Shown piece by piece: positions 13,097 through 16,444 of a stretch of 37,838 bases of DNA. The DNA comes from an uncultured Flavobacteriales bacterium. GTDB lineage: Bacteria; Bacteroidota; Bacteroidia; Flavobacteriales_G; Salibacteraceae. The stretch is from assembly GCA_913057205.1 (NCBI GenBank), contig CAJXNO010000024.1:1-37838 (forward strand), in the 5' to 3' direction. The notes beneath the pieces are model-generated. The model was not told where the DNA came from, searched no databases, and saw nothing but the letters and a program-made list of their open reading frames with translations. Within the stretch, counting starts at the first letter, position 1, and the number at the start of each line of letters is the position of its first letter. The position numbers were made by a program, and so were the translations under genes.

Positions 13097-13213
13097 ATGA
13101 AAATTAGAGCATCCGTAAAGAAAAGATCTGCTGATGACAAGATCGTAAAGCGCAAGGGTCGCGTCTACGTCATCAACAAGAAGAATCCAAAACACAAACA
13201 ACGACAGGGTTAA
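13097..13213 (+). CDS. rpmJ: 50S ribosomal protein L36, zinc-free form
   Basis: The 38-residue product reads [20 protein letters not shown] and ends [10 protein letters not shown], clearly L36, the smallest ribosomal protein. The usual zinc ligands (CxxC, then C and H) are gone: it contains no cysteine at all, with Arg-Ser-Ala-Asp-Asp where the first pair would be. It is therefore a zinc-independent (C-minus) L36. The ATG lies 8 nt after infA and the stop 11 nt before rpsM. Confidence 0.95.
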
Positions 13214-14021: not shown

Positions 14022-14630
14022 ATGGCAAGATACACAGGACCAAAGTCAAAGATCGCTAGAAAGTTCCGGGACCCAATTTTCGGACCAGACAAGGCGTTGG
14101 AGCGTAAGAACTACGGTCCAGGAATGCACGGACCGAACAAGCGACGCATGAAGCAGTCAGAATATGCTGTGCAGTTGCAAGAGAAGCAAAAAGCTAAGTA
14201 TACCTATGGTATTCTTGAGCGTCAGTTCTCTAACTTGTTCGCTGAAGCATCACGAAGAAAAGGCATCACCGGTGAGAACTTGTTGATGTTGTGTGAGTCT
14301 CGTTTAGACAACACGGTTTTCCGCCTTGGTATCGCGCCTACACGTAGAGCAGCGCGCCAGTTGGTAGGCCACCGTCACATCACCGTTAACGGCGATGTTG
14401 TGAACATCCCTTCATATCAATTGAAGCCAGGTGATGTTGTTGCGGTTCGCGAAAAGTCAAAGTCACTTGAAGCGATCACCAACTCAGTAGCAGGTAGCTC
14501 AACAAAAGATTATGCTTGGTTGGAGTTTGATAAGAATGAATTGAGCGGTACGTTCATCGTTCCTCCAACCCGTGATCAGATTCCGGAGAACATCCGTGAG
14601 CAGCTGATCGTTGAATTGTACTCTAAATAA
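14022..14630 (+). CDS. rpsD: 30S ribosomal protein S4, zinc-free form
   Basis: S4 starts 30S assembly and, in E. coli, represses the alpha operon. The 202-residue product has the S4 N-terminal domain ([20 protein letters not shown]) without the zinc-binding cysteines of some S4 proteins, then the S4 RNA-binding domain with [20 protein letters not shown] and [17 protein letters not shown] 101-nt gap with a structured repeat separates it from rpoA, so S4 is a reasonable candidate to act there, though nothing in the sequence proves it. Confidence 0.97.
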
Positions 14631-14643
14631 TTAGATAACCATC

Positions 14644-14712
14644 ATTGGATGTGAGCAGAAATGTTTGAGGGCCCTTCTTCAAGCTGTTCAAACGAAGACA
14701 CTTAGATCCAAT
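14644..14712 (+). promoter_or_regulatory. Nested inverted repeat in rpsD-rpoA leader, candidate cis-acting RNA
   Basis: This is the largest gap in the 14.8 kb ribosomal cluster. An outer pair ATTGGAT (14644-14650) and ATCCAAT (14706-14712), extended by GTG/CAC with a bulge, encloses an inner pair GTTTGA (14663-14668) and TCAAAC (14688-14693). The loop holds GGGCCC and a small CTTCAAG element. The structure ends 19 nt before the rpoA ATG. No T-run follows, so it is not an intrinsic terminator. It may be an RNA leader controlling rpoA-rplQ, a processing site, or a protein-binding site; I know of no named family that it matches. Confidence 0.5.
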
Positions 14713-14731
14713 CAAAACTGAAGAAACAAAC

Positions 14732-15724
14732 ATGGCAATTCTAGATTTTCAACGACCTGATAAGGTCATTATGATACAAGCGGATGACTTCAAAGGTCAA
14801 TTTGAATTCCGTCCGCTAGAACCTGGATACGGTATTACCATCGGTAATGCACTTCGCAGGATCCTTCTTTCATCATTGGAAGGTTACGCGATCACTTCCA
14901 TCAAAGTTGAAGGCGTTGAGCACGAGTTCAGCACCATCAAAGGTGTGATCGAAGATGTTACGGAGATGGTGTTGAACATGAAGGAAGTACGCTTCAAGCA
15001 ACAGATCAAAGAGGAAGACACGGAGACCGTTCGTGTGAAGGTGAGTGGACAGGATAAGTTCACTGCGGGTGACATCGGTAAGTGCACCTCTTCATTCCAA
15101 GTGCTTAATCCGGATCACGTGATTTGCCACATGGATGAGAATGTGACCCTTGAAATGGAAGTTACGGTTGGAAAAGGACGCGGTTACGTTCCTTCTGAAG
15201 AGAACAAGACTTCTAATCCGGCAGTTGGTACCATCTTCTTAGATTCCATCTTCACCCCGATCCGTAACGTGCGGTACACCATCGAGAACTATCGTGTAGA
15301 GCAGAAGACCGACTATGAAAAGCTGATCTTCGATATCGACACCGATGGCTCTATTCACCCGAAAGAGGCGTTGAAAGAGGCTGCTAAGATTTTGATCCAC
15401 CACTTCATGTTGTTCAGCGATGAGCGCATCACTTTGGATCAAGTAGAGAAGAAGGCAGAAGAGGAGTTGGATGAGAATACACTTCACATGCGCCAGCTCT
15501 TGAAGACAAAGTTGGTTGACCTAGACCTTTCAGTTCGTGCATTGAACTGCTTGAAGGCGGCTGACGTAGAAACATTGGGGGACTTGGTTACCTATGAGAA
15601 GAATGACCTGTTGAAGTTCCGCAACTTCGGTAAGAAGTCGCTTACTGAATTGGAAGACCTCGTTCAGATGAAGGGACTCCAGTTCGGAATGAACGTGTCG
15701 AAATATTTGTTAGAAAAGGAATAA
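14732..15724 (+). CDS. rpoA: DNA-directed RNA polymerase alpha subunit
   Basis: The alpha subunit starts RNA polymerase assembly as a dimer and its C-terminal domain touches promoters and activators. The 330-residue product has the N-terminal domain (residues ~1-230, with [20 protein letters not shown]) and the C-terminal helix-hairpin-helix domain (about 255-330, with [20 protein letters not shown] and the [13 protein letters not shown] motif), joined by an acidic linker. Length is normal. rplQ follows after 21 nt, as in the usual alpha operon. Confidence 0.98.
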
Positions 15725-15745: not shown

Positions 15746-16444
15746 ATGAGAAATCGTAATAAGATCAATCAACTCGGACGTACAACTTCACATCGCAATG
15801 CGTTGATGATGAATTTGGCTAACGCGTTGATCACGCACAAACGCATTTCAACCACCCTTGCTAAGGCGAAAGCACTGCGAGGATATGTTGAGCCTTTGAT
15901 TACCAAGTCAAAGGAGGATACGACGCATTCACGTCGAATGGTTTTCCGTCACCTTCAAAGCAAGGATGCCGTTGCCGAGCTTTTCCGTAACGTGGCTCCT
16001 CAAGTAGGTGAGCGTCCAGGGGGCTACACCCGAATCATCAAGACAGGTTTCCGCGCAGGTGACTCTGCTGAAATGTGCATCATCGAGTTGGTTGACTTTA
16101 ACGAAGTCTACACCACAGAGAAGAAGGCGCAAGCAGGTAAGAAAACGCGTAGATCACGTCGAGGCGGTGGAGGAAGCTCTAAGGAGACCGAATCAACTAA
16201 GACAGCTTCTAAGTCAGAAGAGACCAGCGCAGCAGCAGCTGCTGCTGAAGTAGCTGAAGAGGTTGTAGAAAAGGCAGAAGAAGTGGTTGAGAAAGCAGAA
16301 GATGCAGTGGAAGAAGCTGTTGAGGCTGCTCCAGATGCCGTAGAAGATGTGGTTGAAGAAGTAACTGGCTCAACGAAGGACGAATCCAAAGAAGAGTCAT
16401 CAGAAGACGCGTCAGAATCTGAAGAAGAGGAGAAGAAAGACTAG
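15746..16444 (+). CDS. rplQ: 50S ribosomal protein L17 with long acidic C-terminal tail
   Basis: L17 is a 50S protein near the tunnel exit. Residues ~1-127 are the ordinary L17 domain ([50 protein letters not shown]). The product is 232 residues, almost twice the 127 of E. coli. The tail begins with a basic [12 protein letters not shown] segment, then runs as Ala/Glu/Val-rich repeats of the type VVEKAEE and AVEEAVEA, and ends in a Ser/Glu/Asp-rich stretch and lysines. Extended L17 tails occur in Bacteroidota, but this one is long. A terminator follows 32 nt after the stop, closing the ribosomal cluster. Confidence 0.96.

Follow-up and report, generated by a model that had tools for sequence, protein, structure and literature searches.

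A conserved structured RNA between rpsD and rpoA in three families of Bacteroidota, a possible translational operator of rpoA-rplQ

What occupies the single long gap in an otherwise tightly packed ribosomal gene cluster? The question was raised by a window of 37838 nucleotides (the whole stretch of DNA that was analyzed), which carries such a cluster and in which rpsD and rpoA are separated by 101 nt (14631-14731). The other gaps within the cluster measure 27 nt or less, counting rpmJ (38 residues, 13097-13213) as a gene; the earlier statement that no other gap exceeds 27 nt is borne out once rpmJ is recognized. The genes that flank the gap are as follows.

14022..14630, + strand: rpsD (ribosomal protein S4), an open reading frame, the upstream neighbour of the element
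14732..15724, + strand: rpoA (RNA polymerase alpha subunit), an open reading frame with tblastn matches to relatives, the first gene 3' of the element
15746..16444, + strand: rplQ (ribosomal protein L17), an open reading frame, the second gene 3' of the element

The rplQ product of the window is an L17 protein of 232 residues, with an Ala/Glu-rich C-terminal tail of ~100 residues; the L17 of E. coli, at about 127 residues, is much shorter.

A first-pass annotation of this DNA had pointed to two nested complementary pairs in the gap, and both are exact: 14644-14650 (ATTGGAT) with 14706-14712 (ATCCAAT), and 14663-14668 (GTTTGA) with 14688-14693 (TCAAAC). Taken by itself, the window sequence makes the nesting of the two pairs only slightly out of the ordinary, which constitutes weak evidence. 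Pairs of 7+6 bp arose in 511 of 20000 dinucleotide shuffles of the gap (2.6%) and in 54 of 3774 sliding 101-nt stretches of the window, and the folding z-score of the gap region as a single sequence was -1.4 to -1.95. The minimum free energy fold of the window copy favours a competing apical hairpin, formed by UUUGAGGG with CUUCAAG, and in this it differs from four relatives (L095, L033, L014 and L108), whose single sequences fold into the consensus structure described below, or nearly so. A second GAAGA, typical of the genus, is located at 14694-14698 of the window and could take the place of the tail in pairing with the apical loop, a possible competing state. Terminator-like sites, i.e., a G+C-rich stem followed by a T-run, numbered zero in 14400-14900, in agreement with the original view that the repeat is not an intrinsic terminator.

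The case for an element is decided by comparative evidence, in which the two noted pairs correspond to helices P1 and P3 of a structure conserved in three families. The rpoA gene and its upstream neighbour were taken from 30 genomes (the window's included) and 80 named genome records, and the rpsD-rpoA gaps were compared. By inspection, the same motif of ~83 nt, ending just 5' of the rpoA AUG, was found in 31 of the 110 loci: 11 of the 13 members of the window's genus (the window among them), in which the noted pairs are kept, one further locus of the same family (L014) and 19 named records. The named carriers include Fluviicola, other Crocinitomicaceae, Polaribacter, Winogradskyella and Aquimarina agarivorans. 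In the window, the parts of the element are distributed as follows.

14643..14725, + strand: whole structured RNA element (rpoA leader), ~83 nt; covariance model R1 80.7 bits, R2 40.6 bits
14644..14650, + strand: P1, 5' strand, pairs with 14706-14712; AUUG is an invariant core, longer in the window's genus
14652..14655, + strand: P2, 5' strand, UGAG, pairs with CUUA at 14701-14704
14656..14661, + strand: central internal loop, 5' side, CAGAAA, conserved unpaired positions
14662..14668, + strand: P3, 5' strand, pairs with 14688-14694, including a U14662-G14694 wobble
14671..14672, + strand: P3b (short apical stem), 5' strand, pairs with 14683-14684
14675..14681, + strand: apical loop UUCUUCA, which would form the 5' strand of the pseudoknot; UCUUC is the same in all 126 distinct rows
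14683..14684, + strand: P3b, 3' strand, pairs with 14671-14672
14688..14694, + strand: P3, 3' strand; covariation
14695..14700, + strand: central internal loop, 3' side, AAGACA, conserved in the window's genus
14701..14704, + strand: P2, 3' strand, CUUA; covariation
14706..14712, + strand: P1, 3' strand, pairs with 14644-14650
14713..14718, + strand: A-rich stretch CAAAAC linking P1 to the tail, with a usual length of 5-7 nt; conserved as UUAAAAC-like
14719..14725, + strand: tail UGAAGAA at -13 to -7 of rpoA, which would form the 3' strand of the pseudoknot

The element proved to be present where it had been placed, with different limits: it runs from 14643 to 14725 instead of 14644 to 14712, the 3' tail and the proposed pseudoknot having been missed. 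A GTG/CAC "extension" (14651-14653 with 14699-14701) had also been put forward, and is out of register with the conserved P2 (14652-14655 with 14701-14704).

The gap almost certainly encodes an RNA structure, a long hairpin that consists of P1, P2, a central internal loop, P3 and P3b. Among the first 31 rows of the alignment, standard pairs filled 93.0% of 588 cells, versus 28-43% when the partners were slid, and the covariation score was 0.487 versus 0.193 for shuffled rows, none of 500 shuffles scoring as high. A stricter test, run earlier on 114 rows as well, comprised 126 distinct copies in an unconstrained MAFFT alignment (1378 column pairs) and a tree-aware null, for which a tree was derived from rpoA DNA and each column was simulated along it with the number of changes specific to that column. 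The eight highest-ranking of the 1378 column pairs were all helix pairs, in P2, P3 and P3b, with tree-aware E-values of <0.01, 0.008, 0.06, 0.20, 0.31, 0.48, 1.05 and 1.8; only three helix pairs reached E<0.1 under this null. The strongest covarying pair of the element (columns 22-56) is located in P3, the second and third (12-66 and 13-65) in P2, which forms a 6-bp helix in relatives, and the sixth of the 1378 (33-46) in P3b. P1 is beyond the reach of the covariation test, because its AUUG/CAAU is nearly invariant (kept in 19 of 19 rows of alignment A2). G-U pairs occur in the helices (11 of 31 rows, for example, have U-G as the basal pair of P3), which favours an RNA over a DNA site. The compensatory changes by which the structure was to be judged are thus present, and pairs of P2, P3 and P3b covary across the 126 distinct copies.

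The most conserved parts of the element are unpaired, namely the central internal loop and the apical loop UCUUCA. The internal loop sequence of the window's genus differs from that of the other families, in which the 5' side reads CCAAAG and the 3' side GCGCAA, without exception in the 19 rows of A2. A kink-turn in this loop was considered and is not claimed: compared by eye with the kink-turn consensus, the window's genus has CGAAGA on one strand facing a strand without GA, and the other families have neither.

Two covariance models were built, R1 from the motif copies found by inspection, including those of the window's family, and R2 from 19 copies, none of which came from that family. The sole match of R2 in the 37838 bases spans 14643-14725 and scores 40.6 bits (E 1.1e-6). 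Among the 14 loci L001-L014 this model detected 12, missing exactly L008 and L009. Rfam 15 yielded no family at the element, either at gathering score across the window, at E<=10 in 14400-14900 or in three relatives (L095, L033 and L113), and in the open-licence papers searched no rpsD-rpoA RNA element was reported for this phylum. The original suggestion of a cis-acting RNA of a new type is strongly supported by the compensatory changes, by conservation in close and distant relatives and by the lack of an Rfam match. The element is an RNA family absent from Rfam and, as a kind, a probable cis-regulatory leader of ribosomal operons. Like autogenous r-leaders, it is consistently located upstream of a unit that holds a ribosomal protein gene (rplQ), and its conserved RNA structure covaries.

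The apical loop and the tail quite probably pair to form a pseudoknot. In the window, loop 14675-14681 is complementary to tail 14719-14725 over 7 bp, and all 126 rows are able to form the 5-bp core (UCUUC/GAAGA); the core gives no covariation, because it never varies. A sixth loop-tail pair is possible in 111 of the 126 rows and mismatched in 15. Its tail base is other than A in 11 rows, eight of which keep the pair (four G-C, two A-U, one G-U and one U-G), and this column pair ranked 10th of the 1378; its p in the tree-aware test was 0.047, rising to 0.14 when only double changes are counted. The hairpin and the tail also go together across loci, since 133 of the 135 loci that have the hairpin, versus 5 of the 79 that do not, carry GAAGA no more than 20 nt from the rpoA AUG. 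The two hairpin loci that lack GAAGA represent one place read twice, which carries GAAGG. All five of the GAAGA loci without a hairpin are Aquimarina by record name, and R2 finds no element there. In these loci (L074, L075, L077, L087 and L099) the GAAGAA before rpoA stays and the hairpin is gone, which may reflect a recent loss; in Aquimarina agarivorans (L076) the whole element is retained.

The lengths of the parts bear on how such a pairing could be accommodated. The hairpin amounts to ~30 stacked layers. If it were straight, a linker of the usual 5-7 nt could by no means span the distance from P1 to the apical loop, from which we infer that the hairpin is folded in half at the central loop. 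The lower arm (P1 plus P2) and the upper arm (P3 plus P3b) are about equal, ~12 layers each; the arms would lie side by side after the fold, and the apical loop would meet the tail. Such a fold would probably give the conserved internal loop a role, as hinge and putative binding site.

The occurrence of the element was analyzed further in wider sets of genomes. It was detected in 15 of 35 genomes of the window's family (three more gave weak matches, E 0.5-0.6, in loci without rpoA), in 16 of 40 of family f21 and, by a strict pattern, in at least 82 of 299 of family f55, versus 0 with a reversed control. Going by the named records, we take f55 to be Flavobacteriaceae and f21 to be Crocinitomicaceae. 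A class-wide covariance model search, in which 11 candidates were scored for each genome, detected it in at least 17 of 396 genomes, all from these three families; in the order of f55 it was found in 2 of 40 genomes, both f55, and in a phylum sample in 2 of 41, i.e., the window's genome and one f55 genome. Among 28 further genomes read at the gap, three carry the element, all in the window's family. In the class, order and phylum samples, therefore, the element was not detected outside three families of Bacteroidota. Its position is constant: all 82 pattern matches, the 17 class-wide matches and the 16 f21 matches are located between rpsD and rpoA, and rplQ follows rpoA in 133 of 135 element loci, the other two being too short to tell. 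There is one copy per carrier genome, save a weak second match (E 0.9) in one genome. The element is dispensable, being absent from 2 of the 13 genus members and from most of the class genomes searched. In these two members of the genus (L008 and L009) the gap is 23 nt long and both the hairpin and the GAAGA tail are absent, a natural deletion of the whole element that is useful for comparison.

A box described in F. psychrophilum as the -7 consensus of sigma-A, TAnnTTTG (PMC9723704), precedes the element in 4 of 21 f21-like loci versus 1 of 104 control stretches, and 3 of 14 long-gap loci have a terminator-like hairpin in that place. Those genomes probably make a separate rpoA-rplQ transcript, with the element as its 5' leader; elsewhere the element is apparently internal to the operon. 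The box is absent from the 115 nt upstream of the window's copy (L001), and a sigma-70 scan of the window produced nothing upstream of the element. A promoter box in the other families was rejected, the counts (5 of 90 f55-like and 0 of 15 f1 loci) resembling those of the controls (5 of 445 and 1 of 80). The four f21-like sites with a promoter-like box between rpsD and the element are L255, L258, L259 and L261; in L255 and L259 the box abuts the 5' arm of a hairpin that has a T-run behind it, an arrangement that looks like an rpoA promoter overlapping with a terminator of the upstream message.

What, then, might the RNA do? We lean slightly towards reading the whole as a conserved cis-acting RNA that serves, in the mRNA, as a translational operator of rpoA-rplQ. 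The hairpin would fold back at its central internal loop, so that the apical loop pairs with the tail at -13 to -7, and the resulting pseudoknot would occlude the rpoA initiation region, a step to which we give an even chance; in Bacteroidota this region is without a Shine-Dalgarno sequence and relies on staying free of structure. Messenger RNAs of F. johnsoniae are without Shine-Dalgarno sequences, and structure between -20 and +20 accounts for part of the tuning of their initiation (PMC6847099); given the position of the tail, loop-tail pairing should therefore lower rpoA translation. It is conceivable, with somewhat less confidence, that an operon protein bound at the conserved internal loop would stabilise the folded state. 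Candidate ligands would be L17 and S4 in the first place, L17 because rplQ is a target gene and S4 because it is the cognate ribosomal protein in other lineages, followed by alpha itself. A string search against E. coli 16S, 23S and 5S rRNA and part of the 23S rRNA of the window's genome found no rRNA mimic of the internal loop, the matches being short, scattered and never in a matching two-strand context, and the ligand is thus a guess. In this way rpoA-rplQ would be under feedback control independently of the ribosomal genes upstream. That rpoA-rplQ is set apart from the other genes, as the first-pass annotation supposed, fits the position of the element, the predicted pairing at the start region and the terminators or promoters upstream in a few relatives; the function itself is one that we infer.

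Five alternatives were considered. The hairpin and pseudoknot might act as a ligand-free structural brake, which would lower rpoA translation, without any sensing, to a fixed ratio with the ribosomal proteins, which are more abundant. The patchy distribution and the clean loss within the genus would suit a tuning element of this kind, and structure near the start does lower translation in F. johnsoniae (PMC6847099). We consider this reading unlikely, as it would leave the invariant internal loop superfluous.

A second S4 operator within the operon is likewise a doubtful candidate; on this reading free S4 would bind the element and repress rpoA-rplQ, in addition to acting at the known S4-Flavobacteria leader that precedes rpsD. 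Alpha-operon leaders elsewhere have S4 as their ligand, and the site that it binds in E. coli is a pseudoknot spanning an initiation region; however, rpoA is the very cistron that S4 leaves unrepressed in E. coli (PMC10931766). The element and the rpsD leader share one operon in 17 of 135 element loci, yet the leader occurs in 19 of 79 loci without the element, so that no link in presence was evident (the leader was scored by regular expression; three loci gave no data). Moreover, the element is unlike RF03141 and RF00140 in the Rfam comparison, and the string search found no 16S mimic.

An element of mRNA processing or stability (an endonuclease site, a transcript end or a 5' end) that uncouples the rpoA-rplQ mRNA from the upstream message is quite improbable. 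It would be in keeping with the terminator-like hairpin or promoter-like box just upstream in some f21 relatives, but would leave unexplained the loop-tail complementarity and the nearly fixed distance to the AUG, and terminator-like sites are lacking at the window's copy. Binding of a transcription factor to a DNA palindrome was rejected as very improbable: P1 of the window is a perfect 7-bp inverted repeat, which must be set against the G-U pairs in the helices, arms that vary when compensated and the fact that the unpaired apical and internal loops are the most conserved parts. The chances of a short upstream ORF (14661-14705) with leader-peptide control are negligible, and this reading was also rejected, since the ATG at 14661 that opens a 14-codon frame in the window is missing from L014 and the copies of other families, and L004-L006 are longer there, with the frame shifted.

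An extension of the element into rpoA is not claimed. In the f55 carriers (L128-L218), rpoA codons 2-6 are almost invariant, synonymous positions too (often GCA GTA TTT AAT TTT); the sequence types follow clades, and the invariance may be clade history or part of the RNA.

Should the element be a translational operator of rpoA-rplQ, at least three families would have in it a concrete means of uncoupling RNA polymerase from the synthesis of ribosomal proteins. In a phylum without Shine-Dalgarno sequences, where structure at the start site helps to tune translation, it would moreover be a clear example of control by RNA structure. These observations indicate that an undescribed element can hide in one of the best-conserved gene clusters of bacteria.

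Several known leaders invite comparison. The S4-Flavobacteria leader (RF03141) belongs to the same phylum and the same operon and is, like the present element, a predicted cis-regulator. It is a hairpin of 33 positions upstream of rpsD (Eckert and Weinberg 2020, PMC7247131), and was detected there in relatives (L095, L033 and L113), never at the element; in the window, where the rpsK-rpsD gap is only 11 nt, it falls below threshold. The S4-Bacteroidia leader, from a sister lineage, is a hairpin predicted to regulate rpsD-rpoA-rplQ and placed before rpsD (PMC7247131, Table 1). The L17 leader of Actino- and Proteobacteria and L17DE are RNA elements tied to rplQ, as is the present one, and occur up- or downstream of that gene in other phyla (PMC7247131). 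Neither the S4-Bacteroidia leader nor these L17 elements gave an Rfam match at the element.

The E. coli S4 operator, Alpha_RBS (RF00140), is a cis-acting pseudoknot at the initiation region of an alpha-operon gene, a feature that the present element would share if its predicted pseudoknot forms. Alpha_RBS is located before rpsM, over its start, and its model had no match in the window at gathering score or in 14400-14900 at E<=10; unlike Alpha_RBS, the element before rpoA has one hairpin loop that would pair with a tail. In E. coli the alpha operon is repressed by S4 except for the rpoA cistron, which is regulated independently (PMC10931766). The elements of this operon described for Bacteroidota in PMC7247131 are predicted S4 leaders, with rpsD as the first regulated gene. 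Together, the escape of rpoA from S4 in E. coli and the rpsD-first leaders of Bacteroidota favour a second operator, directed at rpoA, and the element would be unusual in targeting rpoA from within the operon.
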